Assembly: GCF_018069875.1 (NCBI RefSeq)
Contig: NZ_JAGQDF010000015.1
Location: 62,001-126,000 of the forward strand
Direction of reading: 5' to 3'
DNA: 64,000 nucleotides
Origin: Ideonella alba
Lineage (GTDB): Bacteria; Pseudomonadota; Gammaproteobacteria; Burkholderiales; Burkholderiaceae_C
Shown: piece by piece, positions 7,237 to 25,049 of the stretch
How positions within the stretch are numbered: the stretch's first letter is position 1
Layout: each line of letters begins with the position of its first letter
The notes under the pieces: model-generated
The model's database searches: none
What the model was told of the DNA's origin: nothing
Seen by the model: the letters and a program-made list of their open reading frames with translations, nothing else
Position numbers and translations under genes: made by a program

Positions 7237-8543
7237 GACACGCCCACACGCTTTCGCTTGTTGCCAGCGTGCTGCTGGCGCTGCCCGCCCACGCCGAGCC
7301 CACCGGCTGCCAGCCCCCCACGGCCCTGGCCCAGCCGGCCGAGTCGCCGCCGCCGCGCCAGAGCCTGGTGCAGCTGCTGTCGCTGGCCGAGCAGCGCAGC
7401 CAGGCCATCGGCGCCGCCCGCCTGCTGACCGAGGCCGCGCAGAGCGACCTGCAGGAAACCCAGGCCGCCAAGCAGCCGCAGGCCTCGCTCAGCTGGATCG
7501 CCGGCGCCACCGGCAGCCGCAGCCAGCTGCTGCCCAGCCGCAGCGATGCGCTGAACCGCCCTTCCCTGCAGGTGGGCGCACCGCTGTGGGACGGCGGCCG
7601 CCAGCAGGCGCTGGAAGACTGGCGCGGCCAGCTGGCCGAAGCCGCCCGCCAGGGCCAGCTGAACGCCGCCGAGCAACTGCGCGTGCAGGTGGTCAACCTG
7701 GCGTTTGATCGCAGCCGCTACCGCCTGCAGGCGCAGGTGTGGCAGCAATACACCCATAAGGTCTGCACCCTGGTGCAGGCGCTGGAAGACATCGTCGCCC
7801 GCGACCGCGGCCGCGCCAGCGAACTGGTGCAGGCCCGCAAGCAACTGCAGCAGGTGCAGCTGTCACGCCAGCAGGCGCTGAGTGCCATGCAGCTGACCGA
7901 CACCCGCCTGCGCCGCTACGTGGGTGAATACCTGCCCGACGTGCCCAGCCTGGCCGCGCTGATGACCGAACTGCCCGAGCTGCCGCAACTGCACCAGCGC
8001 GCCACCGGCGCCGCCGAGGTGCTGCAACTGGAAGCCCAGCAGCACGCCGCCGAGCAACTGGCCAACGCCACCGCCGCCAGCCAGCGCCCGCAAGTGAGCT
8101 GGGCCGTGCAGGCCAGCCGCGACCTGGCCGGCGACCGCCAAAGCCAATGGCAAGCCGGCGTGACCCTGAGCCTGCCGCTCTACAACCCCGGCGCCGCCCC
8201 CGCCGAGCGCGCCGCCCGCCAACGCGCCGAAGCCGCCCGCCTGCAGCGCGAAGACACCCTGGCCACCCTGCTCAACCGCATCGACCAGGTCCACGGCCAG
8301 GCCGAAGCCGCCTTCACCCGCGCCCGCGACGTGGTGCAGGTCCTGCGCGACTCCGAACGCGTGCGCGACGACACCCTGCAGATGTGGCAACAACTGGGCC
8401 GCCGCTCCCTCTTCGACGTGATGTCGGCCGAGGGCGACCACTTCAACCTGCGCCTGGCCTACGTGGACGCGCTGCACGATGGGCAGCAGTCAGTGGCGCT
8501 GTTGTGGTCGTTGGCGGGTGGGGTGCAGCAGCCGCTGCGGTGA
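7233..8543 (+). CDS. TolC-family outer-membrane channel of the type I system
   Basis: The 436-residue protein has a clear signal peptide (MRHAHTLSLVASVLLALPAHA, cleaved near residue 21). Two long, Gln/Ala-rich alpha-helical halves follow, as in outer-membrane efflux proteins: residues about 45-230 and 240-430, with S-L-P-L-Y-N-P-G near the second strand pair. It completes the exporter-adaptor-channel set and starts by ATGA overlap with the adaptor gene. A 50-bp stretch of its second half (8050-8099) has a diverged copy at 9631-9680. It probably forms the trimeric channel for the substrate exported by the 3620 gene product. Confidence 0.93.
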   Translation: MRHAHTLSLVASVLLALPAHAEPTGCQPPTALAQPAESPPPRQSLVQLLSLAEQRSQAIGAARLLTEAAQSDLQETQAAKQPQASLSWIAGATGSRSQLLPSRSDALNRPSLQVGAPLWDGGRQQALEDWRGQLAEAARQGQLNAAEQLRVQVVNLAFDRSRYRLQAQVWQQYTHKVCTLVQALEDIVARDRGRASELVQARKQLQQVQLSRQQALSAMQLTDTRLRRYVGEYLPDVPSLAALMTELPELPQLHQRATGAAEVLQLEAQQHAAEQLANATAASQRPQVSWAVQASRDLAGDRQSQWQAGVTLSLPLYNPGAAPAERAARQRAEAARLQREDTLATLLNRIDQVHGQAEAAFTRARDVVQVLRDSERVRDDTLQMWQQLGRRSLFDVMSAEGDHFNLRLAYVDALHDGQQSVALLWSLAGGVQQPLR

Positions 8544-8609: not shown

Positions 8610-9026
8610 CTACCGGGTCCAGTTCTCGACACGCAGCCCCTTGACGCGCCCGAAGTCCTTGACGTTGTTCGTCACCACGGTCGCGCCCAAGGCCCGCGCA
8701 TGCGCCGCGATCATCAGGTCTGCGGCGCCCAGCTGCGCGCCGCGACGCTTCAGGTCAGCGCGGATCTCTGCATAGTGGGGCGCCGCCTCCTGCGGCCAGT
8801 CCAGCACCGCCAGGTGCAGGGCCAGGCTGTCCAGCACCTGCTGGTTCTGCTTGCGCTTGGCCGCGGCCGAGGCCTGCACACCGTAGCTCAACTCGGCAAA
8901 TGTCACCGCTGACATCAGCTGCTGCTGCAGCGGCACCGACTGCACCTTGTCCGCCAACACCGCCGACTCGCCACGCATCAGGAAGATGCAGGTGTCGGTG
9001 TCCAGCATGTACAGCGGCAACGTCAA
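8610..9026 (-). CDS. vapC: VapC-like PIN-domain toxin ribonuclease
   Basis: The 138-residue PIN-domain protein has the expected acidic cluster: Asp near residue 9 (M-L-D-T-D-T-C), Glu in V-T-F-A-E-L-S-Y-G, Asp in A-A-D-L-M-I-A-A-H and the T-N-N-x-x-D-F motif. VapC toxins are Mg-dependent RNases that often cut initiator tRNA or rRNA loops; the target here is unknown. The ATG overlaps the antitoxin stop by 4 bp, the usual operon order antitoxin-toxin. The gene points towards tolC and ends 66 bp from it. Confidence 0.93.
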   Translation of the reverse strand: MTLPLYMLDTDTCIFLMRGESAVLADKVQSVPLQQQLMSAVTFAELSYGVQASAAAKRKQNQQVLDSLALHLAVLDWPQEAAPHYAEIRADLKRRGAQLGAADLMIAAHARALGATVVTNNVKDFGRVKGLRVENWTR

Positions 9027-10597: not shown

Positions 10598-11977
10598 TCA
10601 GGCCTCCAGTGCCAGGTTGTTGCGCATCACCCTGGCGCGGCTGCGCTCGGCCAGCGAGGTGTCGGCCCGCGACAGCACCAAGCGCACGCAGTTGGAGCCC
10701 GCGTCGGCAACTGGCATCCCACCGTCGTCCAACGCCCCAGCATGCACCAACGACAACCGCTGCTGCAGCATCCCGCGCTCCCAGAAGCGATCCAGCCAGG
10801 GCGCCAGCCGTTCGGACCAATTGGGCGCATCGCCCGCGCCCAATTGCAGCACCAAGCGCCCCTCCGGCCCCAGCAGCCGCAGCGCGGTGTCCAGCAGCGG
10901 CGCAGTGGCAGCGTCATCCAGCCGCCGCTCGCCCACATCGATCAGGGTCCATTGCCCGTCACCACGTGGCAGTGCAGCGGCATCCAGGGGGCCGGCTGCA
11001 TCACCGCCCTCCCCCACGTTGAACCAGCCCGGCCGGTAGCCTGAGCGGCCGTCGTCCAGGTGCAGTCGGTCGGGCACCGGCAGCGCGCTGCCGGCCTGCT
11101 GTGCAGCCGCCCACACCTGCTGACCCAGTTGCCAGGCGGCGCGTGCACCGTCCAGCCGGTCGTCGGACAAGCGGCTGCGCCAGTCGCGTTCGGCAATTCC
11201 GGCGAACTCCGGCCCCCCCAGCCCGTCGGCCAGGGCGCGCAGCAGATCGTCCGCCCGCGCCTCGAACCAGCGGATGTGGGCATGCGCGGCATCGCTGGGC
11301 AGCGCTGCGCGGTTGCTGACCTCGGCCAGCACGGGCACGCCGTGGCGCTGGGCGAGGCGCAGGGCCATCAGGTCGGGGGCGGCGTCGTCGCGCGGCAGCA
11401 GGGCCAGCCAGGCCTGGGCCTGGCGGAGCAGGGCGCGGCGTTCGGGGCCGGCCAGGGGGACGTCGATGCGGTGCACGGGCAGGCCCAGGCGTTGCAGGCC
11501 GGCCAGCACGGCGTGTTGGCGCTCGTTCAATTGGCCTTCGACCACCAGGCCGAGTGGGCGCTGGGGGGTGGGTTGCCAGGGGGTGGCGGGGTCGGGGGCG
11601 GGTTGCCACAGGGCGAAGGGCGGGGCCTTGGGCGCGTCGGCGCGGTAGGCGGCCACGGCGGTGGGGTCGGCGTCCAGCACGGGCCAGCGCTTGAGCAGGC
11701 GGCGGGCCTGGGTGGACAGGGCGCTGGCTTCGCCGGTGCCGCGCACCAGCACGCAGGCGTGGCCTTGGGCGGCGGCGGCATCAAAGCCGTGTTCCACGCC
11801 GATCACGTAGTTGATGGCGCCGGGCTGCAGGCGGCGGCGGGCCAGGGTGGGCGCCAGGCCCAGGGCGCGCAGGTCGTCGCGCAGGGCCAGGGCCAGTTCC
11901 AGGTCGTGCAGGCCGGCCCAGGCGCCGGCGGGGGCGGTCACGCACAGGTGGACGGCGGGAGAGGTGTCTTGGCTCAT
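10598..11977 (-). CDS. Uncharacterised protein, possible glycosyltransferase/methyltransferase-like fusion
   Basis: The protein has 459 residues. The N-terminal half alternates hydrophobic strands and helices like a GT-B fold (L-H-D-L-E-L-A-L-A-L-R-D-D-L, then a second Rossmann-like start P-L-G-L-V-V-E-G). The C-terminal part resembles small sugar-linked methyltransferases: G-Y-R-P-G-W-F-N-V-G-E-G, then W-T-L-I-D-V-G-E and a strand G-R-L-V-L-Q-L-G. I cannot assign catalytic residues. It starts 13 bp after the 328-residue glycosyltransferase-like gene, forming a two-gene operon downstream of the giant repeat gene. A role in modifying that protein is plausible but unproven. Confidence 0.6.
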   Translation of the reverse strand: MSQDTSPAVHLCVTAPAGAWAGLHDLELALALRDDLRALGLAPTLARRRLQPGAINYVIGVEHGFDAAAAQGHACVLVRGTGEASALSTQARRLLKRWPVLDADPTAVAAYRADAPKAPPFALWQPAPDPATPWQPTPQRPLGLVVEGQLNERQHAVLAGLQRLGLPVHRIDVPLAGPERRALLRQAQAWLALLPRDDAAPDLMALRLAQRHGVPVLAEVSNRAALPSDAAHAHIRWFEARADDLLRALADGLGGPEFAGIAERDWRSRLSDDRLDGARAAWQLGQQVWAAAQQAGSALPVPDRLHLDDGRSGYRPGWFNVGEGGDAAGPLDAAALPRGDGQWTLIDVGERRLDDAATAPLLDTALRLLGPEGRLVLQLGAGDAPNWSERLAPWLDRFWERGMLQQRLSLVHAGALDDGGMPVADAGSNCVRLVLSRADTSLAERSRARVMRNNLALEA

Positions 11978-11990: not shown

Positions 11991-12977
11991 TCAGGCAGGA
12001 AGACCGTCGCGCAGGCGCGCGCGCTGGCGGGCCTCCACCGTGGCCAGGAAGGTGAACACCTCCTCGGTGAACAGGCGGCGCTGGTCCTCGATCCACTGCA
12101 CGTAGGGCGCCAGGCGCTGGGCGTGGGTGGCGTGGTCGGCCATGGCCTCGGCGATGCGCTGAATCACCAGCGGCACGGTCAAGGGGTGGCGCTCGTCGAA
12201 CTTGTAGCCTTCGGGCAGCGGCACATCCACCGCGTTGCCGGCGCTGCCCTGGGTGTTGGTGATGACCACGCAGCCGCACAGCGCGGCTTCGCGCGGGATG
12301 CGGTCGCGGCCGGGGTGGGGGCCGAAGTCCACATACACCTTGGCACGGCCCAGCAACTGGGCCACCTCGGCGGGGCTCATGTTCTCGATCGCCACCCACT
12401 GCACCTCGGGCGGTGAGGCCGCCATCAGCTGCTGGGTGAAGGCCAGGCCCTTCTTGGGGTTGTAGGCCACGATGTTCTGGCGCGCACCGCCGCGCAGCGC
12501 GCGGCTGCGGTCCAGGATCTCGTCGCGGATGAAGTCGGTCAGCATCAGCGCGCTGGAGCCGCGGGCGGCCACCCACTGACGGGCGTATTCGCTTTGCGCC
12601 AGGTGGACGATCTCGAAGCGGGGGTCGAAGACGAAGTCCAGCGGGCTGCGGGCGGCGCCGCGGCGCAGGGCCTCGGCGCGCGAAAAGTAATGCTCCACGC
12701 TCAGCCACCACAGCGCGCGGGTGGCGTGCTTCAGCTCCAGCAGCTGCAGCGTGCCGGTCTCGGGCACCACCACCACGCTGTCGGGGCTGTCGACGATCTC
12801 CTTGACCACGCGCGGCTGGTACATGCGAAAGACGGCCGGCGTGGGGTCCGGGTCGTCCTCGGGCAGGTAGAGCATGGCCATGTCGTAGCCCAGGCGCTGC
12901 CCGGCGTCGACCAGTTGATGCAGCGCCTCGGGGCCGCCGGTGACCGAGGAGGCCGGGCACAGAACGTGGACTTTCAT
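11991..12977 (-). CDS. Glycosyltransferase-like protein (GT-B fold)
   Basis: The 328-residue protein begins M-K-V-H-V-L-C-P-A-S-S-V-T-G-G-P-E-A-L-H, a GT4-like N-terminal Rossmann strand followed by a glycine-rich acceptor loop. Near residues 240-265 it has H-P-G-R-D-R-I-P-R-E-A-A-L-C-G-C-V-V-I, which resembles the nucleotide-sugar binding E-A-x-x-x-G motif of GT4 enzymes. There are no membrane segments or signal, so it is cytoplasmic. It is the first gene of the two-gene unit following the terminator of the giant repeat gene. The donor and acceptor are unknown. Confidence 0.65.
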   Translation of the reverse strand: MKVHVLCPASSVTGGPEALHQLVDAGQRLGYDMAMLYLPEDDPDPTPAVFRMYQPRVVKEIVDSPDSVVVVPETGTLQLLELKHATRALWWLSVEHYFSRAEALRRGAARSPLDFVFDPRFEIVHLAQSEYARQWVAARGSSALMLTDFIRDEILDRSRALRGGARQNIVAYNPKKGLAFTQQLMAASPPEVQWVAIENMSPAEVAQLLGRAKVYVDFGPHPGRDRIPREAALCGCVVITNTQGSAGNAVDVPLPEGYKFDERHPLTVPLVIQRIAEAMADHATHAQRLAPYVQWIEDQRRLFTEEVFTFLATVEARQRARLRDGLPA

Positions 12978-13017: not shown

Positions 13018-13058
13018 AAAAAGGGCCCGCTGGCGGACTTCTGTCCGCCAGCGGGCCC
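13018..13058 (-). terminator. Rho-independent terminator of the giant repeat gene
   Basis: A perfect 16-bp stem (13023-13038 pairing with 13043-13058) has a 4-base loop and is followed on the minus strand by five T residues. It lies 20 bp past the stop codon of the octad-repeat gene. It is one of the strongest hairpins in the window and separates that gene from the glycosyltransferase-like pair. Confidence 0.9.
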
Positions 13059-13077
13059 TCTCCGGTTCAGCGCCGGA

Positions 13078-13770
13078 TCAGAGCAGCGGCGTGTGGCGCT
13101 GCAGGTCGTCGTTCTCCGGGCGGAAGACGGCGGCCAGCAGGGCCGGCTGCGACGCGGTGGCCGCAGCGTGCTCGGTCAGCGCGGTGGGCAGCGCCTCGCT
13201 GGGCGCCACCAGCAGCTCGCCCAGGCTGGGCGGGGTGCTGTCGGCCGCGGGCTGCTGCTTGGCGAACCAGACGTCGGCCATGGCGTGGGTCTGGCCGTCG
13301 GTGCTGGTGTAGCTCGACACCAGGCCCAGCAGGTTGCCGTTGTCCACGGCGCCGCCCTTCTGCGCGGCCAGGTCCAGGCTGGCGATGCCCAGGCTGTCCA
13401 GGCTGCGCAGCTCGCCGGCGTCGGTGACGCCGTCGTGGTTGCCGTCCACCCAGACCTGCAGCTTGGCCCAGTGGGCATCGGCCGCGTTCAGCACGCCGTC
13501 GTGGTTGCTGTCTTCCAGGGCCATGGCCTGGTAGCCGTTGCCCACGTGCTGGCCGTTGGCGTCGCGGGTGCCGGTGCCGAACAGCTCGGTGCCGTCGTTG
13601 ATGCGGCCGTCACCGTTGCGGTCCATCACCAGCAGGCCGTCGTTGCCACCCACCCAGCCCACCTGGTGGGTGGTGCCGGTGCCGGCCAGGTCAAAGTTCA
13701 CGCCCTGGGCCGCAGACACGGTCTGGATGCCGTTGCCGTCCAGGTCCAGCACCATCGGGGTGACCAGATA
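13078..13770 (-). other. C-terminal calcium-binding and probable secretion-signal region of the giant protein
   Basis: This codes for the last 230 residues, outside the octads. It holds four Asp-rich loops: one partial (D-L-D-G-N-G) and three of EF-hand length. A region with hydrophobic and small residues follows, ending D-D-L-Q-R-H-T-P-L-L. Type I substrates carry an uncleaved C-terminal signal, so the last 60 or so residues are the probable export signal. The assignment is by position and family resemblance. Confidence 0.7.
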
Positions 13771-16700
13771 CAGCGCGTCAAGCTGGGCGGCGCTCATCAC
13801 GGCCACGTCCTCGGCCTCGAAGGCAGCCACCTGGTCGCTGGTCATGGCGGCGATGTCCGCCGTGTGCAGCGCGGTGATCTGCTCGGTGGTGAAGGCGGCG
13901 ATCTGGTCGGTGGTCAGCGCATGGGCCTGGGCGGTGGTCAGCGCCGCCACTTCGGCCGTGCTCAGCGCGGCGAACTGGGTGGTGCTGAGGGCCGCCACCT
14001 GGGCCGTGGTCAGCGCGGTGAACTGGCTGGCGCCAATGGCCTGCAGGTCCTCGGTGGCGATCGCGGCGATCTGCTCGGTGGTCAGGCGGGCCAGCTGCGT
14101 GGTGCCCAGCGCAGCGAACTGCGCGGTGGTCAGCGCGTCGATCTGCTCGGTGCCGATGGCCTGCAGCGCGGCGCTGCTCAGTGCCTGCAGATCGGCCGTT
14201 TCCATCACCGCCACCTGGGCGGTGGTGAGCGCGGCGGCCTGGGTGGCCGTCAGCGCTGCGGCCTGCAGGCTGGTCAGCGCGACGATGTCCTGGGTCTCCA
14301 GGGCCTGGATGGCCGCGGTGTCCAGCGCGCGCAGGCCGGCGGTGCCCAGCGCCACGATCTCGGCGGTGCCCAGGGCCACCAGCTGCGCGGTGTCCAGCGC
14401 ATCCACCTGGGCGGTGGTCAGCGCGGCCACCTGGGTGGCGGTCAGCGCGTCCACCTGGGCGGTGGTCAGGGCCAGCACCTGGTCGGTGGTCAGGGCGCGC
14501 AGGTTGACGGTGCCCAGCGCGGCCATGTCGGCGGTTTCCAGCGCGGCGATCTGGGCGGTGCCCAGGCCAGCCACCTGGGCGGTGCTGAGCGCGGCCACCT
14601 GGGCGGTGGTCAGGGCCAGCACGGCCTCGGTGGTCAGCGCGGCCAGCTGGGCGGTGCCCAGGGCGCGCAGCGACGCGGTGGCCAGCGACGGCAGGTCGGC
14701 GGTGTCAAACGCGGCCATCTGCGCGGTGGTCAGCGCCGCGGCCTGGGCCGAGGTCAGCGCGGCCACCTGGGCCGAGCCCATGGCCACCCACTGGTCGGTG
14801 TCCAGCGCGGCCACCTGGGTGGTGGTCAGCGCGGCCACCTGGACGGTGGTCAGGGCCGCCACCTGCTCGGTGCCCAGGGCGCCGATCTGGTCGGTGCTCA
14901 GGGCGCGCAGCGCGGTGCTGCCCAGGGCGCGCAGATCCAGGGTCTCCAGCGCGGCCACCTGGGCGGTGGTCAGCGCCGCAGCCTGGGTGGCGCTGAGGCT
15001 GGCGTAGGCGGCGGTGCCCAGCGCGTTGAGCAGGTCGGTGCTCAGGGCCGACAGCTGGGCAGTGCTCATCGCCGACACCTGGGCGGTGCTGACGGCGGCC
15101 ATCTGGGCGGTGCCCATGGCGTTGAGCTGGTCGGTGCCCAGGGCCTGCCACTGGCTGGTGCTCAGCGCGGCCAGGTCGGCGGTCTCGATGACGGCCACCT
15201 GCGTGGTCGTCAGCGCGGCCACCTGGGCGGTGGTCAGCGCGGCCACCTGGGCGATGGACAGGGCGACCACGTCGTCGGTGTCCATGGCCGCCACCTGGGC
15301 GGTGGTCAGGCTGCGCAGCTGGGTGGTGGTCAGCGCGGCCACCTGGCCGGTGGTCAGGGCGGCCACCTGGTCGGTGCCCAGGGTGCTGACCTGGGCGGTG
15401 CTCATCAGGCGCAGGTCGGCCGTTTCCAGGGCCTGGATCTGCGTGGTGGTCAGCGCCGCCGTCTGGGCGGTGGTCAGGCCGGCCACCTGGGCGCCGGTCA
15501 GGGCCACCACCTGGGCGGTGGACAGCTCGGCCAGCGTGGCGGTGCCCATCGCGGCCAGCGAGGCGGTGGCGATCAGCGCCAGGTCGGCGGTCTGCAGGCC
15601 GGCGATCTGGTCGGTGGTCAGCGCGGCCAGCTGGGCGCTGGTCAGGGCCGAGGCCTGGGCGGTGGTCAGCGCGGTGATCTCGTCGCTGGTCAGCGCGGCG
15701 AAGGCAGCGGTGCCCAGCGAACGCAGCGCGGTGGTCTCGATCGCCGCCAGGTCAGCCGTGTCCAGCGCCGCCGCCTGGGCGGTGCCGATGGCCGCCACCT
15801 GGCTGCCGGTCAGCGCGGCGAACTGGGTGGTGGTCAGCGCATTCAGCGCATCGGTGGACAGCGCCGCCAGCTGCGCGGTGCCCAGGCCGGCCACCTGGGT
15901 GGTGCTCAGCGAGGCCCACTGGCCGCTGGTCAGCGCATTGAGCTGGTCCGAACCCAGGGCGCGCAGCGAGGTGACCGACAAGGCACGCAGGTCGGCGGTC
16001 TCGATCGCGGCCATCTGGTCGGTGCCCAGCGCGGCCAGGTTGGTGGTGGTCAGGGTCTGCCACTGGGCGGTGCCCATGGCGGCGATGGCGTCGGTGGACA
16101 GCGCGGCCAGGTTGGCGGTGCCCAGCGCGTTGAGCGTGGCGCTGCTGAGGGCGGCCACATCCGCGGCTTCCAGCGCGGCGGCTTGCGTGGTGTCCAGCGC
16201 GGCGGCCTGGGTGCTGGTCAGCGCGGCGTACTGCGCGGTGGTCAGCGCAGCCAGTTGCGCGGTGTCCAGACCGGCCATCTGCGACGTGGTCAGGCCGGCC
16301 ACCTGGGTGGTGGTCAGCGCGGCCAACTGGGCCGAGCCCAGGGCATTGAGCTGGTCAGTGGACAGCGTGCGCAGCGAGGCCACGCTCAGCGCGCGCAGGT
16401 CGGCGGTTTCCAGGGCCGCCACCTGGTCGGTGCTGAGCGCCGCCAGCTGGGCGGTGGACAGCGCGGCCGCCTGGGCGGTGGTCAGCGCGATGATCTGGTC
16501 GCTGGTCAGCGCGGCGACCGACGCGGTCTCCAGGCTGCGCAGCGCCAGCGTGCTCAGGGCCGCCAGGTCGGCGGTTTCCAGCGCGGCGGCCTGGTCCGAA
16601 CCCAGCGCGGCGGCCTGTGCCGAGCTGAGCAGCGCGAAGTGGCTGGTGGTCAGCGCGTTCAGCGTGTCGGTGCTGAGTGCGGCGATCTGCGCGGTGGTCA

Positions 16701-19700
16701 GCGCGGCCGACTGGGTGGTGGTCAGCGCGGCCACCTGGGCCGAGCCCAGGGCATTGAGCTGGTCGCTGCCCATGGCGGCGATCTGGGTGGCGCCCAGGCG
16801 CTGCAGGTCGGCGGTTTCCAGCGCGGCGATCTGGTCGGTCGTCAGCGCGGCCACCTGCGTGGCGCTCAGCGCGCCAGCCTGGGCGGTGGTCAGGGCCACC
16901 ACCTGGTCGGTGGTCAGCGCGGCCACCTGGTCGGTGCCCAGGCCCCGCACGGCGGCGGTGCTCAGGGCCGCCAGGTCGGCGGTCTCCAGCGCGGCCAGCT
17001 GGGCGGTGGTCAGGGCCGCGGCCTGGGCCGTGGTCAGCACCGCGAACTGGGCGGTGCCCAGCGCGTTGAGCTGGGTGGTGTCCAGGCCGGCCAGCTGGGC
17101 GGTGGTCAGCGCCGCCACCTGGCCCCCGGTCAGCGCGGCCATCTGGGCGGTGCCCAGGGCGTTGAGCTGGTCGGTGCCCAGGGCGTTGATCTGCGCATTG
17201 CTCATGGCACGCAGGTCATCGGTCTCCAGCGAGGGCAGCTGGTCGCTGGTCAGCGCGGCCACCTGGGCGGTGCCCAGGGCCATCACCTGGGCCGAGCCCA
17301 GGGCGGTGATGGCGTCGGTGCTGAGCGCCGCCACCTGGTCGGTGGACAGACGCACCAGTTGCGCGGTGGACAGCGCGGCGGCCTGCGCGGTGGTCAGCGC
17401 AGCCACCTGGTCGGTGCCCAGCGCGGTCAGCGCGGCCGAGCCCAGCATGCGCAGGTCGGCGGTCTCGATGGCCTGGATCTGGTCGGTGGTCAGTGCGGCC
17501 ACCTGGTCGGTGGTCAGCGCGGCGACCTGGGCGTTGCCCAGCGCGGCCACCTGGGCGGTGGTCAGCGCGGCCAGCGTGTCGGTGGTCAGTGCGGCGACGG
17601 CGGCGGTGCTCAGCGCGGCCAGCGCCGCGGTGGACAGGCTGTCGATCTGGGTGCTGCCGATGGCGGCCGACTGGGTGGCGGTCAGCGACGCAGCCTGGGC
17701 CGAGGTCAGCGCGGCCATGGCGTCGGTGGACAGGGCCGCCACCTGCTCGGTGGCCAGGCCCCGCAGCGCGGCGGTGCTGAGCGCCGCCACGTCAGCGGCT
17801 TCCAGCGCCGAGACCTGGTCGGTGGACAGCGCAGCCAGCTGGGCTGAGCTGATCTGGGCGAACTGCGCGGTGGTCAGGGCGTTGAGCGGGTCGGTGCCCA
17901 GCGCGGCCACCTGGGCCGTGCCCAGGGCGCGCACCTGCGCGGCGGTCAGCACGCCGATCTGGTCGGAGCCCAGGGCGTTGAGCGCCTCGGTGCTCAGCGC
18001 AGCCACCTGGGCCGTGCCCAGCTGCACCAGGTCGGCGGTCTCGAAGGCGGCCAGCTGGTCGCTGGTCAGCGCGGCGGCCTGGCCGGCGGTGATGACCGCG
18101 GCCTGGGCAGTGGTCAGGGCGATGATCTGGTCACTGGTCAGCGCAGCGGCCTGGTCGGTGGTCAGGGCGGCCACCTGGGTGGTGGTCAGCGCCGCCACCT
18201 GGGTGGCGGTCAGTTCAACCAGTTGGCCGGTGCTCAGGGCCTGCAGCGCGGCGGTGCCCAGCGACCGCAGGTCGGCGGTCTCCAGTGCGGCCACCTGGTC
18301 GGTGGTCAGGGCCGCCACCTGGGCGGTGGTCAGCGCGGCCACCTGGGCGGTGCCCAGGGCAGCCACTTGGGCGGTGTCGAGTGCGGCCAGGGCCTCGGTG
18401 GCCAGCGCGGCCACCTGGGCCGTGCCCAGCGCCGCGACCTGCGCGGTGCTCAGGCCCGCCATCTGCTCGCTGCCCAGCGCGGCCGCCTGGCCGGTGGCCA
18501 GCGCCGCCACCTGGGCGGTGGTCAGGGCGGCGATCTGGTCGGTGCCCAGCGCGGCCAGCTGATCGGTGCCCAGGCCACGCAGCGCGGCGGTGCCCAGCGC
18601 GGCCAGGTCAGCGGCTTCCAGCGCCACGGCCTGGTCGGTGCCCAGGGCGGCGACCTGGGCGCTGCCCAGCGCGGCGAACTGGGCGGTGCCCAGGGCCACC
18701 AGGTTGTCGGTGCTCAGGCCGGCGATCTGCGCGGTGCCCATGGCGGCCACCTGGCTGGCCAGCAGCGCGGCCATCTGGGTGGTGTCCAGGGCGTTGAGCT
18801 GTTCGGTGCCCAGCGCGGCCACCTGGGCGGTGGTCAGGGCCACCAGGTCGGCGGTCTCCAGCGCGGCGGCCTGCTCGGTGCCGAGCGCGGCGATCTGCGC
18901 CGTCGTCATGGCGGCGGCCTGGGCGGTGGTCAGGGCGGCGATCTGGTCGGTGCCCAGCGCGGCGATCTGGTCGGTGCCCAGAAAGCGCAGCTGGGTGGTG
19001 CTGAGGGCCGCCACCTGGGCGGTGCCCAGCGCGGCCATCTGCTCGGTGGACAGGCTTTGCAGCGCGGCGCTGCCCAGGGTGCGCAGGTCGGCGGTCTCGA
19101 TGGCCTGGACCTGGTCGGTGCCCAGCGCGGCGATCTGCGCGGTGGTCAGCGCGGCGGCCTGGGCGGTGGTGATGGCGGCGATCTGGGCGGTGTCCAGCGC
19201 GGCCAGCGTGGCGGTGGCCAGCGCGGCGATCTGGGCGGTGCCCAGCTGCACCAGGTCAGCGGTTTCCAGACCCGCGACCTGGTCGCTGGTCAGGGCCGCG
19301 GCCTGGGCGGTGGTCAGCGAGGCGGCCTGGGCGGTGGTCAGCGCCGCCACCTGCTCGGTGGTCAGGGCGGCCACGCGGGCGGCGTCCAGGCCACGCAGGG
19401 CGGCGGTGCTCAGCAGGGCCAGGTCCTGGGTCTCGAGCGCGGCCACCTGGTCGGTGCCCATCGCGGCCACCTGGGCCGAGCCCAGCGCGCCCACCTGGGC
19501 GGTGGTCAGGGCGTTGAGCAGGCTGGTGTCCAGCGCGGCGATCTGGTCGGTGGTCAGGCCGGCCACCTGGGCCGTCGTCAGCGCGGCGATCTGGTCGGTG
19601 GACAGGGCATTGACCTGGTCGGTGTCCAGCGCCACCAGGCCGGTGCGGCCGATGGCGCGCAGGTCGGCGGTTTCCAGCGCGGCCACCTGCTCGGTGGTCA

Positions 19701-22700
19701 GCGCGGCCAGCTGGGCGGTGGTCAGCGCCAGCGCCTGGGCGGTGCCCAGGGCCACGATGTGGCTGGTGCCCAGGGCCTGGATCTGGTCGGTGGACAGGTG
19801 GGCCACCTGCTGGGTGGCCAGCGCGGTGACCTGGCTGTCGGTCAGCGCGGCGATCTGGTCGGTGGTCAGCGCGCCGATGGCGGCGTTGCCCAGGGCCTGC
19901 AGGTCAGCGGTTTCCAGGGCCTGGATCTGGTCGGTGGTCAGGCCGGCGATCTGGGTGCTGGTCAGCGAGGCCACCTGGGCCGAGCCCAGCGCGGCGACCT
20001 GGGCGGTGCCCAGCGCGGCCAGCGCGTCGGTCTGCAGCGCGGCCAGCGCGGCGGTGGTCAGGCGGGAGGCCGCGGCGGTGGTCAGCGCGGCGACCTGGTC
20101 GCTGCCCAGCGCGGCCGACTGCACAGACGACAGCGCGGCGGCCTGGCCGTTGGTCAGCACGGCGATGGCCTCGGTGGTCAGCGCGGCGATCTGGGCGGTG
20201 CTGAGCTGGCGCAGCGCGGCGGTGCCCAGCGCGGCGAAGTCAGCGGTTTCCAGCGCGGCGATCTGGGCGGTGGTCAGCGCGGCGGCCTGAAGCGCGCTCA
20301 TCGCCGCGAACTGGGTGGTGGTCAGCGCATTGAGGTGCGCGGTGTCCATGGCGGCCAGCTGGGCGGTGGTCAGCGCGGCGGTCTGCACCGTGCTGAGCGC
20401 GGCCAGCTGGGTGCTGTCCAGGGCGTTGAGCTGGTCGCTGCCCAGGCGCACGATCTGCTGTGTGCTGAGCGCCGCCAGGTCGGCGGTTTCCAGCGCGGCG
20501 ACCTGGCCGGTGGTCAGCGCGGCCACCTGGGCAGTGGTCAGCTGGGCGGCCTGGGCGGTGGTCAGGGCCTGCACGGCCTGGGTGGACAGCGCGGCGATCT
20601 GGGCGGTGTCCAGCGCGCGCAGCGTGGCCACCTTCAGCGCGGCGACGTCGGCGGTTTCGAGCGTGGCCACCTGGGCGGTGGTCAGCGCGGCGGCCTGGGT
20701 GGCGCTGAGCGTGGCGAACTGCTCGGTGCCCAGCGCATTGAGGGTGTCGGTGCTCAGGCCGGCGACCTGCGCCGTGGTGAGCGCGGCCACCTGCACGGTG
20801 GACAGCGCCGCCACCTGGGCACTGCCCAGGGCGTTGAGCTGGTCGGTGCCCAGCGCCACCACCTGGGTGGTGGCCAGGGCGGCGAGGTCGGCGGTTTCCA
20901 GCGCGGCGACCTGCTCGGTGCCCAGCGCGGCGATCTGCGTGGTCGACAGGCCGGCGATCTGCCCGGTGCTCAGCGCACGCAGGTTGTCGGTGGACAGCGC
21001 GCCGATCTGCGCGGTGTCCAGCGCACGCAGTTGCGTGACGCTCAGGGCCTGCGCCTGCGCGGTGGTCAGCGCAGCGACCTGGTCGGTGCCCAGCGCGGCC
21101 ATCTGAGCGGTACCCAGCGCGCGCAGGTCGGCGGTTTCCAGCGCGGCCACCTGGTCGGTGGTCAGCGCGGCGACCTGGGCGGTGGTCAGCGCGGCCACCT
21201 GCAGGCTGCTCAGGCCGGCGACCTGGGCGGTGCCCAGCGCGGCGGCCACATCGGTGGTGAGCGCGGCCACGGCGGCGGTGCCCAGCGAGGCCAGGTCGGC
21301 GGTCTCGAAGCCGGCCACCTGGTCGGTGCCCAGCGCGGCGGCCTGGGTGGCGGTGATCGAGGCGGCCTGACCGGTGGTCAACGCGGCCAGCTGGTCGGTG
21401 CCCAGCGCGGCGACCTGGGCGGTGCCCAGGCCGGCGATCGCGGCGGTGCTGAGGTGGGCGATGTCGCCGGTTTCCAGCGCGGCCAGTTGATCGGTGCCCA
21501 GGGCCGCCACCTGGCTGGCCTTGAGGGCTGCCACCTGGGTGGTGGTCAGGGCTTCAATCTGCGTGGTCGACAGACCGGCCACCTGGGCGGTGCCCAGCGC
21601 AGCGATCTGCGCGGTGCTCAGGGTCTGCCACTGGGCGGTGCCCAGCGCATTGAGCTGGGCCGTGCCCATGGCGGCGATCTGCGCGGTGCTCAGGCTGACC
21701 AGGTCGGCGGTCTGCAGCGCGGCCACCTGGTCGGTGCTCAGCGCGGCGACCTGGGCGGTGCTCAGCACCGCGTACTGGGCGGTGCCCAGGGCCTGCAGGT
21801 CATCGGTGGCGATGGCGGCGATCTGGTCGGTGCTCAGGGCCGCCAGCTGGGCCGTGGTCAGGGCCGCGGCCTGGGCCGTGGTCAGGGCATCGATCTGGCT
21901 GCTGTCCAACGTGCGGACGGCGGCGCTGCCCAGGGCGACCAGGTCAGCGGTCTCGAGCGCGGCGATCTGCGCGGTGGTCAGCGCCGCCACCTGGGCGGTG
22001 CTGAGCGCGGCGACCTGGGCGCTGCCCAGCGCGGCGATCTGCGCGGAATCCAGCGCGGCGACGGTGTCGGCGGCCAGGGCGCGGATGGCGGCGGTGCTCA
22101 GGCGGGCCAGGTCCACGGTCTGCAGACCGGCGATCTGGTCGCTGCCGAGCGCGGCGGCCTGGGCAGTGGTCAGCGCAGCGGCCTGGGCGGTGGTGATGGC
22201 GGCCAGCTGGTCGGTGCCCAGTGCCGCCACCTGGGCGGTGGTCAGCGCGGCGAAGCTGGCGGTGGCCAGCGCGGCCACGTCGGCGGTCTGCAGCGCGGCC
22301 ACCTGGGCGGTGGTCAGCGCGGCGGCCTGGGTGGCGCTGAGCCAGCTGAACTGGGCGGTGGTCAGCGCGTTGAGGTTGTCGGTGCTGAGGGCGGACAGCT
22401 GGGCGGTGCTGAGCTTTTGCACCTGTTCGCTGGTCAGCGACACCAGCTGGGCCGTGCCCAGCGCATTGAGCTGGGCCGAGCCCAGCGACAGCAGCTGCGA
22501 GGTGCTCAGCGCCGCCAGGTCGGCGGCTTCCATCGCGGCCACCTGGTCGGTGGTCAGCGCGGCGACCTGGGCATTCGACAGCGCGCGCACCTGGGCGGTG
22601 CTCAGGGCCGCCACGTCGGCGGTTTCCATCGCGGCGATGCGGTCGGTGGCCAGCGCGTTGACCTGCGCGGTCTGCAGCGCGGCCACCTGGGCGGTGGACA

Positions 22701-24114
22701 GCGCGGCGATCTGGGCGGTGGTGAGGGCGGCGGTCTGCTGGGTGGTCAGCTGGCGCAGCTGGGCGGTGCTGAGCGCGCTCAGGCCCTCGGTGCCCAGCGC
22801 CACCATGGCGGCGGTGCTGAGGGCGCGCAGCGCGCCGGTGGTCAGCGCGGCGATGTCGGCGGTCTCCATCGCGGCGGCCTGGGCGGTGGTCAGCGCGGCG
22901 GCCTGGGCGGTGGTCAGGGCCTGGATCTGGGCCGTGCCCAGCGCGTTGAGCTGGGTGCTGCCGAGGTTGGCGACCTGGCCGGTGGTCAGCGCCGCCACCT
23001 GGGCGGTGGTCAGCGCCGCGACCTGGGCGGTGCCCAGGGCGTTGAGCTGGGCGCTGCCCATGGCGATGACGTTGCGGGTGCTGATGGCGCGCAGGTCGGC
23101 CGTCTCCAGCGCGGCCACCTGGTCGGTGGTCAGCGCGGTGATGCGGCTGGCGCTCATCGCGGCGTACTGGGCGGTGGTCAGGGCCCGCAGGTCATCGGTT
23201 TCGATCGCGGCCACCTGGGCGGTGGTCAGCGCATTGAGGTTGGCGGTGCCCAGCGCGGCCCACTGGGCGCTGCCCAGGGCCGCCAGCTGGTCCGACGACA
23301 GACCGGCCAGCGCGGCGGTCTTCAGGGCGTTGAGCTGGGCGCTGGCCAGCGCCACCATCTGGTCGGTGTTCAGCGCCTGGGCCTGGGCCACCGACAGCGC
23401 ATTGACCTGGGCGGTGGTCAGCGCCTGCACCTGCGCGGTGGTCAGGGCATCGACAGCCGCCGTGCCCAGCGCGGCCACCTGGGCGGTGGTCAGCGCACGC
23501 AGATCGGCGGTCTGCAGGGCCGCGATCTGGTCGGTGCCCAGCGAGGCCACCTGCCGCGTGGTCAGCGCCAGGTACTGGGCGGTGGTCATGGCCTGGATGG
23601 CGTCGGTGGACAGCGCGGCCAGCGCGGCGGTCGACAGGCTGCGCAGCGACGCGGTGCTGATCGCGGCGGCATCGGCCGACTGCAGCGCGGCGGCCTGGGC
23701 GGTGCCCAGCGCGGCGATCTGCGCCGAGCTCAGCGCCGCGAACTGCGCGGTGCCCAGCGCGTTCAGGTTGCCGGTGTCCAGCGCGGCCACCTGCGTGGTG
23801 CTGAGCTTGCCCAGCTGCACCGTGGTCAGCGCGGCCATCTGGGCGTCGGTCATCGCATTGAGCTGCGCCGTGGTCAGCGCAGCGATGCCGGCGGTGGTGA
23901 TGGCGCGCACATCGGCCGTCTCCATCGCCGCGATCTGGGTGGTCGACAGGCCGGACAGGCGGGCCGCCGGGATGGCCGCGATCTGCGCCGTCGTCAGCGC
24001 CACGATCTGCGCGGTCGAGAAGGCGGCCCAGTCTTCAGTGGTCAGACGCGCGATCGTCGCGGTCGACAGGGCAGCAATCTGGGCCGTCGTCAGGTTCGGG
24101 ATATAGGTGGCCAT
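13078..24114 (-). CDS. Giant octapeptide-repeat protein with EF-hand-like C-terminus, putative type I secreted surface protein
   Basis: The start chosen is ATG 24114 (M-A-T-Y-I-P-N), with GGAG seven bases upstream; a longer in-frame start at 24162 has no ribosome site. The product has 3678 residues. Seven leader residues precede 430 octapeptides (residues 8-3447), then a region of about 231 residues. The octad consensus is L-[T/S/G/E]-[T/S]-[A/D]-[Q/D]-[V/I/L/A]-[A/N/R]-A. The C-terminus begins V-L-D-L-D-G-N-G and has three EF-hand-like loops (D-R-N-G-D-G-R-I-N-D-G-T-E, D-S-N-H-D-G-V-L-N-A-A-D, D-G-N-H-D-G-V-T-D-A-G-E), as in type I secreted calcium-binding proteins. No Sec signal or classical RTX nonapeptide array is present. 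The LapB-type exporter operon at 3620-8543 is the likely secretion route, and the GT41 enzyme at 1714 a likely modifier. Adhesin, sheath or matrix fibre are possible roles. Confidence 0.9.
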   Translation of the reverse strand: MATYIPNLTTAQIAALSTATIARLTTEDWAAFSTAQIVALTTAQIAAIPAARLSGLSTTQIAAMETADVRAITTAGIAALTTAQLNAMTDAQMAALTTVQLGKLSTTQVAALDTGNLNALGTAQFAALSSAQIAALGTAQAAALQSADAAAISTASLRSLSTAALAALSTDAIQAMTTAQYLALTTRQVASLGTDQIAALQTADLRALTTAQVAALGTAAVDALTTAQVQALTTAQVNALSVAQAQALNTDQMVALASAQLNALKTAALAGLSSDQLAALGSAQWAALGTANLNALTTAQVAAIETDDLRALTTAQYAAMSASRITALTTDQVAALETADLRAISTRNVIAMGSAQLNALGTAQVAALTTAQVAALTTGQVANLGSTQLNALGTAQIQALTTAQAAALTTAQAAAMETADIAALTTGALRALSTAAMVALGTEGLSALSTAQLRQLTTQQTAALTTAQIAALSTAQVAALQTAQVNALATDRIAAMETADVAALSTAQVRALSNAQVAALTTDQVAAMEAADLAALSTSQLLSLGSAQLNALGTAQLVSLTSEQVQKLSTAQLSALSTDNLNALTTAQFSWLSATQAAALTTAQVAALQTADVAALATASFAALTTAQVAALGTDQLAAITTAQAAALTTAQAAALGSDQIAGLQTVDLARLSTAAIRALAADTVAALDSAQIAALGSAQVAALSTAQVAALTTAQIAALETADLVALGSAAVRTLDSSQIDALTTAQAAALTTAQLAALSTDQIAAIATDDLQALGTAQYAVLSTAQVAALSTDQVAALQTADLVSLSTAQIAAMGTAQLNALGTAQWQTLSTAQIAALGTAQVAGLSTTQIEALTTTQVAALKASQVAALGTDQLAALETGDIAHLSTAAIAGLGTAQVAALGTDQLAALTTGQAASITATQAAALGTDQVAGFETADLASLGTAAVAALTTDVAAALGTAQVAGLSSLQVAALTTAQVAALTTDQVAALETADLRALGTAQMAALGTDQVAALTTAQAQALSVTQLRALDTAQIGALSTDNLRALSTGQIAGLSTTQIAALGTEQVAALETADLAALATTQVVALGTDQLNALGSAQVAALSTVQVAALTTAQVAGLSTDTLNALGTEQFATLSATQAAALTTAQVATLETADVAALKVATLRALDTAQIAALSTQAVQALTTAQAAQLTTAQVAALTTGQVAALETADLAALSTQQIVRLGSDQLNALDSTQLAALSTVQTAALTTAQLAAMDTAHLNALTTTQFAAMSALQAAALTTAQIAALETADFAALGTAALRQLSTAQIAALTTEAIAVLTNGQAAALSSVQSAALGSDQVAALTTAAASRLTTAALAALQTDALAALGTAQVAALGSAQVASLTSTQIAGLTTDQIQALETADLQALGNAAIGALTTDQIAALTDSQVTALATQQVAHLSTDQIQALGTSHIVALGTAQALALTTAQLAALTTEQVAALETADLRAIGRTGLVALDTDQVNALSTDQIAALTTAQVAGLTTDQIAALDTSLLNALTTAQVGALGSAQVAAMGTDQVAALETQDLALLSTAALRGLDAARVAALTTEQVAALTTAQAASLTTAQAAALTSDQVAGLETADLVQLGTAQIAALATATLAALDTAQIAAITTAQAAALTTAQIAALGTDQVQAIETADLRTLGSAALQSLSTEQMAALGTAQVAALSTTQLRFLGTDQIAALGTDQIAALTTAQAAAMTTAQIAALGTEQAAALETADLVALTTAQVAALGTEQLNALDTTQMAALLASQVAAMGTAQIAGLSTDNLVALGTAQFAALGSAQVAALGTDQAVALEAADLAALGTAALRGLGTDQLAALGTDQIAALTTAQVAALATGQAAALGSEQMAGLSTAQVAALGTAQVAALATEALAALDTAQVAALGTAQVAALTTAQVAALTTDQVAALETADLRSLGTAALQALSTGQLVELTATQVAALTTTQVAALTTDQAAALTSDQIIALTTAQAAVITAGQAAALTSDQLAAFETADLVQLGTAQVAALSTEALNALGSDQIGVLTAAQVRALGTAQVAALGTDPLNALTTAQFAQISSAQLAALSTDQVSALEAADVAALSTAALRGLATEQVAALSTDAMAALTSAQAASLTATQSAAIGSTQIDSLSTAALAALSTAAVAALTTDTLAALTTAQVAALGNAQVAALTTDQVAALTTDQIQAIETADLRMLGSAALTALGTDQVAALTTAQAAALSTAQLVRLSTDQVAALSTDAITALGSAQVMALGTAQVAALTSDQLPSLETDDLRAMSNAQINALGTDQLNALGTAQMAALTGGQVAALTTAQLAGLDTTQLNALGTAQFAVLTTAQAAALTTAQLAALETADLAALSTAAVRGLGTDQVAALTTDQVVALTTAQAGALSATQVAALTTDQIAALETADLQRLGATQIAAMGSDQLNALGSAQVAALTTTQSAALTTAQIAALSTDTLNALTTSHFALLSSAQAAALGSDQAAALETADLAALSTLALRSLETASVAALTSDQIIALTTAQAAALSTAQLAALSTDQVAALETADLRALSVASLRTLSTDQLNALGSAQLAALTTTQVAGLTTSQMAGLDTAQLAALTTAQYAALTSTQAAALDTTQAAALEAADVAALSSATLNALGTANLAALSTDAIAAMGTAQWQTLTTTNLAALGTDQMAAIETADLRALSVTSLRALGSDQLNALTSGQWASLSTTQVAGLGTAQLAALSTDALNALTTTQFAALTGSQVAAIGTAQAAALDTADLAAIETTALRSLGTAAFAALTSDEITALTTAQASALTSAQLAALTTDQIAGLQTADLALIATASLAAMGTATLAELSTAQVVALTGAQVAGLTTAQTAALTTTQIQALETADLRLMSTAQVSTLGTDQVAALTTGQVAALTTTQLRSLTTAQVAAMDTDDVVALSIAQVAALTTAQVAALTTTQVAVIETADLAALSTSQWQALGTDQLNAMGTAQMAAVSTAQVSAMSTAQLSALSTDLLNALGTAAYASLSATQAAALTTAQVAALETLDLRALGSTALRALSTDQIGALGTEQVAALTTVQVAALTTTQVAALDTDQWVAMGSAQVAALTSAQAAALTTAQMAAFDTADLPSLATASLRALGTAQLAALTTEAVLALTTAQVAALSTAQVAGLGTAQIAALETADMAALGTVNLRALTTDQVLALTTAQVDALTATQVAALTTAQVDALDTAQLVALGTAEIVALGTAGLRALDTAAIQALETQDIVALTSLQAAALTATQAAALTTAQVAVMETADLQALSSAALQAIGTEQIDALTTAQFAALGTTQLARLTTEQIAAIATEDLQAIGASQFTALTTAQVAALSTTQFAALSTAEVAALTTAQAHALTTDQIAAFTTEQITALHTADIAAMTSDQVAAFEAEDVAVMSAAQLDALYLVTPMVLDLDGNGIQTVSAAQGVNFDLAGTGTTHQVGWVGGNDGLLVMDRNGDGRINDGTELFGTGTRDANGQHVGNGYQAMALEDSNHDGVLNAADAHWAKLQVWVDGNHDGVTDAGELRSLDSLGIASLDLAAQKGGAVDNGNLLGLVSSYTSTDGQTHAMADVWFAKQQPAADSTPPSLGELLVAPSEALPTALTEHAAATASQPALLAAVFRPENDDLQRHTPLL
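13774..24093 (-). repeat. 430 tandem 24-bp units coding octapeptides, with 816-bp higher-order periodicity
   Basis: Every unit is exactly 24 bp; unit n starts at 24117 minus 24n, and I found no insertion or deletion from unit 1 to 430. Units diverge in sequence but keep hydrophobic position 1, Ser/Thr at 2-3, a polar residue at 5, aliphatic at 6 and mostly Ala at 8. Marker units of E-T-A-D-[L/V] type sit 7 or 10 units apart. One series recurs exactly every 34 units: 151, 185, 219, 253, 287, 321 and 355. A second runs 161, 195, 229, 263, 297 and 331. Confidence 0.95.
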
Positions 24115-24338: not shown

Positions 24339-25049
24339 TCACGGCTGGGCGAGCAGCCGCAGCACGTCGGAGTGGAACTCGCGCCGGTACAGCAGCGCGA
24401 CGATCGCGGCCGTGGCGGCCATGAAAGCCCAGGGCGAGATGAACCAGGCCACGGCCGCAAAGGCCATGTAGTAGGCGCGCAGGCCGTCGTTGAAGCTCTC
24501 GGCGGCCAGGCCCATGATGCCGCCGGCGCGGTCGGCAAAGGCCTGGCGCTCGGGCTCGGTCCAGCCCTCGTCGCGCTGCGGCGCGGCGGCCAGCAGCAGC
24601 GCGCCGAAGCTGTACTGGCGGATGCTCCAGGTGAAGCGGAAGAAGGCGAAGACGAAGACGCCCGTCAGCAGCACCAGCTTGAAGTCGAACACCAGACCGG
24701 TGGTGCGGGCGGCAAAGGGCAGCTCGCGCGCCAGCTCGGCCGCCTTGTCGGCGGTGCCCAGCACCGCCAGCAGGCCGCCGATGATCAGGATCGTGGTGGA
24801 CGCAAAGAACGCCGGGCTGGACGACAGGTTCTGCGTGACCACGCCATCAAAGACGCGGTTGTCGCGCGCGGTGGCGCGCAGCATCCAGGCGTGGCGGGCG
24901 CGGTTGGTCAGGCCCAGGATCGACGGCCGGGTGGCGGCACGCCGCCGCGCGAAGGCGGCGTAGCCCACCCAGCCGACGAAGAACAGCGCCAGCGCCAGCC
25001 AGTCGGCCAGCGGCAGCAGGGACAGGGCGTCGACACTGAAGATGCGCAT
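24339..25049 (-). CDS. DUF599 family membrane protein
   Basis: The 236-residue protein has about four hydrophobic helices: near residues 10-30, 80-100, 125-145 and 195-220. It carries the DUF599 features R-A-x-W-M near 53, N-L-S-S-S-P-A-F-F-A-S-T near 73, and F-x-F-F-R-F-T-W-S-I-R-Q-Y-S-F near 136. The function of the family is unknown. It is an inner-membrane protein by prediction. It follows the pirin gene on the same strand with a 27-bp gap, and it precedes the octad gene. Confidence 0.88.
   Translation of the reverse strand: MRIFSVDALSLLPLADWLALALFFVGWVGYAAFARRRAATRPSILGLTNRARHAWMLRATARDNRVFDGVVTQNLSSSPAFFASTTILIIGGLLAVLGTADKAAELARELPFAARTTGLVFDFKLVLLTGVFVFAFFRFTWSIRQYSFGALLLAAAPQRDEGWTEPERQAFADRAGGIMGLAAESFNDGLRAYYMAFAAVAWFISPWAFMAATAAIVALLYRREFHSDVLRLLAQP

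Follow-up and report, generated by a model that had tools for sequence, protein, structure and literature searches.

An uninterrupted array of 430 ALTTAQ octapeptides in Ideonella alba: a predicted short-helix solenoid associated with a GT41 glycosyltransferase and type I secretion genes

Introduction

A gene in the draft genome of Ideonella alba (5.5 Mb) encodes a protein of 3678 amino acids that is largely a series of 430 octapeptides in unbroken register, a count that raises the question of what in the cell measures 430 octads. We analysed the 64,000-nucleotide stretch that contains the gene (contig NZ_JAGQDF010000015.1, positions 62,001 to 126,000 of the forward strand; hereafter the window). 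The repeat family itself, ALTTAQ (Pfam PF20080), is already known; new here are a period of 3.4 octads along the array, an array length frozen among diverged relatives, an association with a GT41 glycosyltransferase gene and an LssB-type secretion operon, and a C-terminal calcium module that probably does not clip. The period, the module and the neighbouring glycosyltransferase and type I secretion operon were absent from the initial annotation, which described the octads from the sequence alone. We consider it probable that the protein becomes a giant, very thin and rigid extracellular rod, glycosylated in the cytoplasm and exported by type I secretion; the short-helix solenoid itself commands more confidence than this full course of events.

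Results

The repeat gene and its octads

The gene comprises the following features, all on the minus strand:
13078..24114, minus: giant repeat protein gene, 3678 amino acids plus stop, placed by its open reading frame (ORF), third-position G+C and a start at the conserved N-terminus
24094..24114, minus: seven-residue N-terminus preceding the octads, conserved in relatives
13774..24093, minus: 430 in-register octads (PF20080, ALTTAQ), residues 8-3447, from Pfam and AlphaFold2 of octads 170-220
13261..13758, minus: FrpC-type calcium module, residues 3453-3618, matching PDB 6sjw in sequence (E 8.6e-36) and fold (E 1.4e-15)
13081..13260, minus: 60-residue tail, candidate C-terminal type I secretion signal, disordered almost throughout by predicted local distance difference test (pLDDT)

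The ORF opens at a TTG at 24162 (3694 amino acids), and the conserved start is the ATG at 24114. Third-position G+C in this frame is 0.958, which identifies the minus strand as the coding strand. Two long antisense open frames on the plus strand (13015-17847, 1610 amino acids; 18223-24333, 2036 amino acids) mirror the repeat codons: their high G+C (0.94-0.96) falls at first codon positions, and they were rejected as genes on that account.

The extent given by the initial annotation was confirmed to the residue: the contiguous octads begin at residue 8 (base 24093), end at residue 3447 (base 13774) and are interrupted by neither insertion nor deletion. Its hydrophobic position 1 (L/M/I/F/V in 430 of 430) and polar position 5 (Q in 295) likewise held. 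Serine or threonine had been assigned to both positions 2 and 3, which is accurate for position 3 (387 of 430) and too narrow for position 2, where T, G, S, D or N occupies 361 octads; position 8, described as mostly alanine, is A, G or S in 387, a figure that pools the three residues. Position 6 is hydrophobic or alanine in 424. There are 326 distinct octads, the commonest being LTTAQVAA with 16 copies, and hence the array is diverged and bears no mark of recent expansion. Among lags up to 39, the four with the highest identity are 8, 16, 24 and 32 (0.35-0.55) in each 200-residue block of the array, and the next best never exceeds 0.20; by a crude rule the longest octad run is 154 in the real protein against 8 in 200 shuffles. 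The tract carries a net charge of -170, with histidine taken as positive, and an acid is strongly preferred one octad ahead of arginine or lysine at position 7, a preference for which no structural reading was obtained.

The initial annotation recognised no named repeat family, and this did not survive comparison with Pfam: the protein matches PF20080 (ALTTAQ_rpt) with 2682 bits over 124 stretches (gathering cut-off 26.4 bits), which disposes of a new, unnamed repeat. All 112 PF20080 matches listed for the genome fall in the giant ORF. The EndoS leucine-rich repeat (LRR) family in Pfam and several LRR chains in PDB also match, probably through composition, and since the structural model contains only helices an LRR relationship was rejected. 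NCBIfam names neither the protein nor its C-terminus, and PHROGs matches only the C-terminal module (phrog_3677).

PF20080 is found in 10 of 40 relatives, I. alba included, and its distribution in the genus is patchy, with 8 of 16 genomes positive. It occurs in 28 of 398 genomes sampled from the phylum, with at least 20 matches in 18 of these, match numbers being lower bounds because about 18 candidates were scored per genome. A scan of a collection of named genomes with the alignment of the N-terminus produced 112 confirmed stretches, of which the best 80 were kept, representing 79 loci; hosts among the best 80 are Ideonella, Aquabacterium, Rubrivivax, Rhizobacter, Sphaerotilus, Leptothrix, Roseateles, Azohydromonas, Derxia, Duganella, Massilia, Iodobacter, Rhizobium, Pseudomonas and others, mostly bacteria of freshwater and soil. 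The closest named match to the N-terminus is from Ideonella aquatica (97% identity), in a comparison from which the I. alba record itself may have been excluded. With a position-specific scoring matrix derived from the window protein, an octad ORF was obtained at 78 of the 79 loci; the remaining one (L087), from a metagenome-assembled genome (MAG) labelled Chloroflexaceae, has the N-terminal match and no octad ORF by the rule used, perhaps through a binning error. Two loci are irregular. One (L016, in genome G004) looks broken or rearranged, with a 1738-residue octad ORF lacking the usual N-terminus and a 374-residue ORF that fuses a lipoprotein-like start to 25 octads; the other (L011, in G022) has, along part of the protein, 24-octad units interrupted for ten residues at 386-residue intervals, and an adjacent second octad ORF of 840 residues with a different N-terminus.

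A predicted helix in every octad

AlphaFold2 modelled octads 170-220 (51 octads) with a pLDDT of 94.5, placing one helix of 5-6 residues and a turn of 2-3 residues in each octad, except that two octads are fused into a single helix at residues 123-136 of the model. DSSP assigns the helix to octad positions 3 to 7 or 8, which makes position 2 the N-cap. In a second model the last 20 octads have block pLDDT values of 88-91, which drop to 73-78 across roughly the final four. The octad tract is thus predicted with high confidence to be a solenoid to which each octad contributes a single very short helix. The initial annotation had offered an alanine-rich short-helix solenoid with threonine or serine N-caps as one possible fold, and had named a prediction without regular structure as the contrary outcome; the regular helix per octad supports its suggestion, with T, G, S or D at the N-cap.

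Among PDB structures, Foldseek placed the designed protein 8cws first (E 6.0e-5, TM 0.12), and the best natural match was mesothelin (E 1.6e-4, probability 1.00, TM about 0.2-0.3), which is described in PMC10035497 as a right-handed solenoid of 24 short helices. Among known short-helix solenoids, mesothelin and the ARM-HEAT proteins may be the nearest in kind. Foldseek found no close structural relative of the octad model in PDB, and VIA-align Z scores reached at most 7.6.

A period of 3.4 octads

Superimposed on the octad register is a second, longer rhythm. Aspartate or glutamate at position 4 recurs with a period of 3.399 octads and a power of 75, where white noise averages about 1; glutamate or glutamine at position 2 and aspartate at position 5 recur with a period of 3.402 octads, and the self-similarity of the window tract peaks at lags of 34, 17, 68 and 51 octads. 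We extended the measurement to 65 proteins, which supplied 74 tracts no shorter than 80 octads, and the strongest period lies between 3.3 and 3.5 octads in 63 of the 74, in 49 of 60 after dereplication and in 7 of 200 shuffled controls. Repeat units in relatives measure 24 octads (3.43 per turn, 7 turns), 27 (3.375 per turn, 8 turns), 31, 44, 48 and 61. The best self-similarity lag is on average 0.030 turn away from a whole number of 3.4-octad turns, compared with 0.249 by chance, which suggests that duplications are mostly kept only when they restore the same faces.

About 3.4 octads may therefore constitute one superhelical turn, or about 106 degrees per octad. An ideal-backbone scan, which was restricted to 98-114 degrees per octad and to alpha-carbon distances and hence speaks to feasibility only, found that screws free of clashes are possible in this range. 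The 25 most compact of 601 such screws have a radius of about 8 Angstrom and rise 7-10 Angstrom per turn, with position 1 toward the axis and positions 2, 3, 4 and 7 outward; inward and outward positions in the protein may be arranged likewise. At 3.4 octads per turn, 430 octads make 126.5 turns and would be roughly 100-125 nm long (8-10 Angstrom per turn). Plotted on a wheel of this period, D/E at position 4 centres at 291 degrees, E at 2 with D at 5 at about 30 degrees and R at 7 at 95 degrees; octads in the sector of about 85-210 degrees have a charge close to zero or positive, and their mean content of serine and threonine is the highest.

Array length is fixed within lineages

Exactly 430 octads are present in the window protein and in those of I. 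oryzae, I. livida, I. aquatica and I. paludis, and one further relative has 430 octads minus one residue. Misassembly of the tract, which the initial annotation had raised as the outcome that would undo its description, is therefore unlikely. Ungapped identity over the 3440 residues is 0.62-0.65 among these proteins (0.90 between the window protein and that of I. aquatica) at shift 0, the next-best shift relative to the window protein being 34 octads with an identity of 0.55-0.57. Ten-octad windows match best at shift 0 in 43 of 43 cases for I. aquatica and in 17-24 of 43 for three more distant Ideonella; local matches off shift 0 may be expected because the repeats are so alike. I. livida and I. 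paludis also have second copies, of 141 and 301 octads respectively.

Fixed lengths recur elsewhere in the family. Three Roseateles/Mitsuaria genomes have 362 octads (complete ORFs, 80-97% identity) and three Rhizobium have 327 (complete ORFs, 91-97% identity); the counts in Sphaerotilus and Leptothrix differ, at 324 and 327. Across eight whole genes from Rubrivivax and its relatives, the span between the N-terminal TTEDW motif and the calcium module measures 4191-4192 residues in five Rubrivivax (L060, L068, L072, L076 and L115) and 4064-4065 in three related genomes (L074, L084 and L088). Full-length ungapped identity is 0.65 for L068 and L076 and 0.62 for L060 and L072; L115 is equal in length but has different internal breaks and an identity of 0.25. 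Equal lengths in such diverged relatives point to selection on both phase and length, in keeping with the structural selection that the initial annotation had read from the perfect phase.

A calcium module that has lost its scissile aspartate

Beyond the octads the chain ends in a module whose fold resembles that of 6sjw in a Foldseek comparison (TM 0.81 by target length), and in a tail for which pLDDT is below 50 at model residues 335-384 and 387-391 of 391, its last 57 residues being nearly all disordered. Calcium-ligand and scissile residues of the FrpC module were numbered after PMC7078468 and compared across 34 C-termini, namely those among 93 proteins that have the starting motif of the module and at least 150 residues after its start. 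The finding motif required D or N at 419 and 421 and left the scissile position free, and L051 and the long copy of I. paludis in this set are one gene. Equivalents of D419, D456, D462, E474, D499, D503 and D521 are kept in 34 of 34; that of D421 is D in 23 and N in 11, and that of D423 is variable. The equivalent of the scissile Asp414, before proline, is threonine in 24, the window protein included, and serine in the other 10, and the equivalent of Asp478 is never aspartate (0 of 34). Clip-and-link activity was rejected on these grounds, and the retained ligands make calcium-dependent folding likely; judged by its residues, the module probably folds with calcium but does not clip. It shares with the FrpC structures (6sjw, 6sjx) the fold and four EF-hand-like calcium sites, and differs from them in these substitutions and in its C-terminal site after the octads.

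Association with GT41 and type I secretion genes

Past the 3' end of the repeat gene, at distances of 4.5 to 11.4 kb, four plus-strand genes follow:
1714..3606, plus: TPR and GT41 glycosyltransferase, OGT/SPINDLY-like (PF13844, E 5.2e-74; XcOGT, 2jlb, E 1e-78; co-occurrence)
3620..5839, plus: LssB-type type I secretion permease/ATPase (TIGR03375, 775.7 bits, cut-off 693.1)
5836..7236, plus: HlyD-family type I secretion adaptor (TIGR01843, 325.5 bits, cut-off 208.65)
7233..8543, plus: TolC-like outer membrane channel (PF02321, E 1.3e-18; TIGR01844, 63.6 bits, below its cut-off of 225.15)

The GT41 gene shares its strand with the exporter genes and lies 14 bases ahead of them. Its product matches PF13844 with 249.9 bits (cut-off 25) in addition to TPR families, and resembles Xanthomonas XcOGT, human OGT and SPINDLY. 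The sugar donor differs among OGT, SPINDLY and HMW1C-like members.

Among 24 members of the genus and family, all 10 that are repeat-positive carry an orthologue of this gene (at least 62% identity), as does 1 of the 14 that are repeat-negative (Fisher 5.6e-6), the exception (G002) being a genome 80% complete in 510 contigs. The TolC gene is present in 9 of 10 and 0 of 14 respectively (Fisher 7.6e-6, a 31% match in G023 being excluded), and the repeat gene and GT41 share a contig in 6 of the 10 repeat-positive relatives. Farther afield, 733 kb of sequence flanking 78 named loci contained 9 GT41 homologues against 0.27 expected, an expectation based on the 2 GT41 matches of the I. alba genome, where some relatives have up to 6; as the flanks are limited, a locus without GT41 in them tells little. 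The hosts are Rhizobium (3), Gallionellaceae, Hyphomicrobiales, Massilia, Aquabacterium soli, Sphaerotilus mobilis and Leptothrix discophora. Across the phylum PF13844 occurs in 17 of 18 strongly repeat-positive genomes and 116 of 380 others, or in 19 of 28 genomes with any repeat match; 14 of the 18 strongly positive genomes belong to one MAG family, which dominates this co-occurrence.

Several side observations concern the same pair of genes. MAGs of family f59, from two genera (G084, G112, G143, G080, G140 and others), have several ALTTAQ ORFs together with GT41 clusters; some of their single ORFs hold several GT41 matches, and in several MAGs the clusters lie within about 20 kb of the repeats. 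Of 14 control genomes, Caulobacter vibrioides alone contains ALTTAQ repeats, and it likewise encodes a GT41 protein. In the three Rhizobium forms (L094, L097 and L121) a GT41 gene is found about 440 bases downstream of the repeat gene.

Other genes near the repeat gene are:
8610..9026, minus: PIN-domain gene between the exporter operon and the 459-residue protein gene
10598..11977, minus: 459-residue protein, downstream of the 328-residue protein gene, with homologues in I. oryzae (34% identity) and I. aquatica
11991..12977, minus: 328-residue protein adjoining the 3' end of the giant gene, with homologues beside the gene in I. oryzae and I. aquatica
24339..25049, minus: DUF599 gene upstream of the repeat gene, found nearby also in I. 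livida, I. aquatica, L009 and L016

The 459-residue protein matched nothing in Pfam or PHROGs. For the 328-residue protein the sole Pfam match is WsaF_C, below cut-off at E 0.028, and there is one PDB match at E 0.2; it is possibly a second glycosyltransferase, having a GT-B look by eye.

Discussion

We propose that each octad, in its consensus form L-T-T-A-Q-V-A-A, would form one short helix with position 2 as N-cap and positions 3 to 7 or 8 as helix, and that the helices would wind into a solenoid at about 106 degrees per octad, 17 octads completing five turns. Leu1, Gln5 and the hydrophobic residue 6 would point inward, and positions 2, 3, 4 and 7, which carry most of the variation, outward, with this variation sorted into an acidic face (D/E at 4), an E-T-A-D ridge and an uncharged face rich in serine and threonine. 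In the cytoplasm the GT41 enzyme may grip the chain by its TPR domain and add sugars to exposed serine and threonine before export; the LssB-HlyD-TolC exporter would then secrete the chain C-terminus first, and calcium outside would fold the FrpC-like module, so that folding begins there and the chain is helped outward. Lacking the clip-and-link aspartate, the module may serve as a folding cap. The rod would most likely come to belong to a surface coat, fibre or matrix, because no retention module precedes the octads and no tip domain was recognised, and sugar on a Thr/Ser-rich rod with an acid strip might confer solubility, protease resistance or adhesion to neighbours.

Several observations weigh against this reading. 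The AlphaFold2 input alignment comprised 11 rows, all from the protein's own repeats, and its predicted template modelling score (0.80) says little, for an elongated repeat, about long-range twist. The strongest period lies elsewhere in 11 of the 74 surveyed tracts (2.39-2.45, 4.80, 5.40 and 5.68 octads; L082, L096 with three tracts, L099 with one, L105, L106, L112, L117 with one and L118 with two), and the surveyed tracts have common ancestors. A difference of 127-128 residues, or 16 octads, separates the two Rubrivivax length groups, and this amounts to 4.7 turns, not a whole number. GT41 is on a different contig in four repeat-positive relatives (G003, G004, G010 and G014); of 25 loci whose 3' flank extends to 2 kb or more, only 6 show GT41 and 4 HlyD/TolC. 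GT41 is common in any case, occurring in 133 of 398 phylum genomes, and none was found in one strongly repeat-positive genome (G427), in three weaker members of family f63 (G231, G234 and G311) or in five weak positives (G095, G170, G225, G268 and G295). The Rhizobium forms (327 octads) end octad-like with no calcium module found, so their secretion signal must differ.

The abundance of GT41 in the phylum also favours the alternative that the substrate of the enzyme is flagellin or something else and that its gene has simply been inherited together with the secretion operon, as does the example of Caulobacter FlmG, a TPR and glycosyltransferase protein that glycosylates flagellins in the cytoplasm (PMC7591256). 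Against it, the orthologue follows the repeat gene in 10 of 10 relatives and occurs in 1 of 14 others while other GT41 paralogues are spread across both groups alike, and its gene precedes the exporter genes so closely on one strand; we regard this alternative as doubtful. A usual type-I-secreted giant adhesin, in which the octads are a mere spacer for a binding domain and glycosylation is incidental or absent, would be consistent with the LssB-type exporter and the FrpC-like calcium module, both typical of large secreted proteins, and with the frequent role of long repeats as spacers in giant adhesins. GT41 genes, however, travel with the repeat gene, and no ligand-binding domain was recognised, only the calcium module and disordered tail following the octads. 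The Pfam scan found no RTX nonapeptide family (Gly/Asp-rich, calcium-binding) at E 0.1 and no adhesin domain save a sub-threshold Fibrinogen_BP match inside the octads, and there is no LapA-type N-terminal retention module, the octads starting at residue 8 with no other N-terminal Pfam domain. An adhesin of this type is, in our estimation, unlikely, somewhat more so than co-inheritance of GT41.

It is much less probable that the array binds ice, mineral or a polysaccharide surface instead of accepting sugar: the N-cap position and the backbone scan do place Thr/Ser 2 and 3 outside at regular spacing, and an uncharged Ser/Thr-rich face exists, but position 2 varies (T, G, S, E and D) and the GT41 association would be left unexplained. 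Least probable, and already disfavoured, is a slippage product of little function kept open by its codon pattern, since, although GC-rich repeats can slip, near-identical 24- and 27-octad units record recent duplication in some relatives and presence in the genus is patchy, 430 octads are kept at 62-65% identity in Ideonella, total length agrees within one residue in five Rubrivivax, third-position G+C is that of a coding frame (0.958), duplication units obey the 3.4-octad period and neighbouring genes are associated.

With PF20080, a Pfam model of 38 positions, the window protein shares its octad; the output for that entry gave no fold, role, 3.4-octad period, frozen length or GT41 link. PDB entry 9zem, 'HeliScrew4', has 120 residues arranged as L-[TS]-P-[ED]-x-[IVF]-A-[AR] octads, which can be aligned with those of the window protein (E 3.3e-16, compared by sequence only); it differs in having about 15 octads and proline at position 3. 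Its name suggests a helical screw, and the existence of this solved entry suggests that others have worked on octad screws. It is absent from the fold matches listed for the octad model, which does not show that the folds differ. XcOGT, FlmG and HMW1C-like enzymes combine TPR and glycosyltransferase domains and modify an exported protein before export; the reported substrates of the FlmG and HMW1C types are flagellins or two-partner-secreted adhesins, whereas a type I substrate is proposed here. In the literature searched, which was short on subscription papers, we found nothing on the fold, partner enzyme or length of ALTTAQ proteins, nothing on HeliScrew or short-helix octad solenoids and, among the papers listed, nothing linking GT41 with type I secretion.

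A catalogued and apparently unexplained family thus gains a predicted fold, a superhelical parameter that may be read from sequence and a testable set of partners. Should the GT41 link hold, a type I substrate would be seen to undergo OGT-like O-glycosylation in nature. Tentatively, and with less confidence than we attach to the rod itself, ALTTAQ proteins may form an extracellular filament class of their own: a screw of single-turn helices, capped by calcium and completing one turn in 3.4 octads, which lengthens mostly through duplication of whole turns to a size fixed within each lineage, and which receives sugar on one face from a dedicated OGT-like enzyme in the cytoplasm before type I secretion. 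Such a filament might act as a glycosylated molecular ruler or brush. The octad screw and its duplication by whole turns may also represent a design rule for rods of set length.

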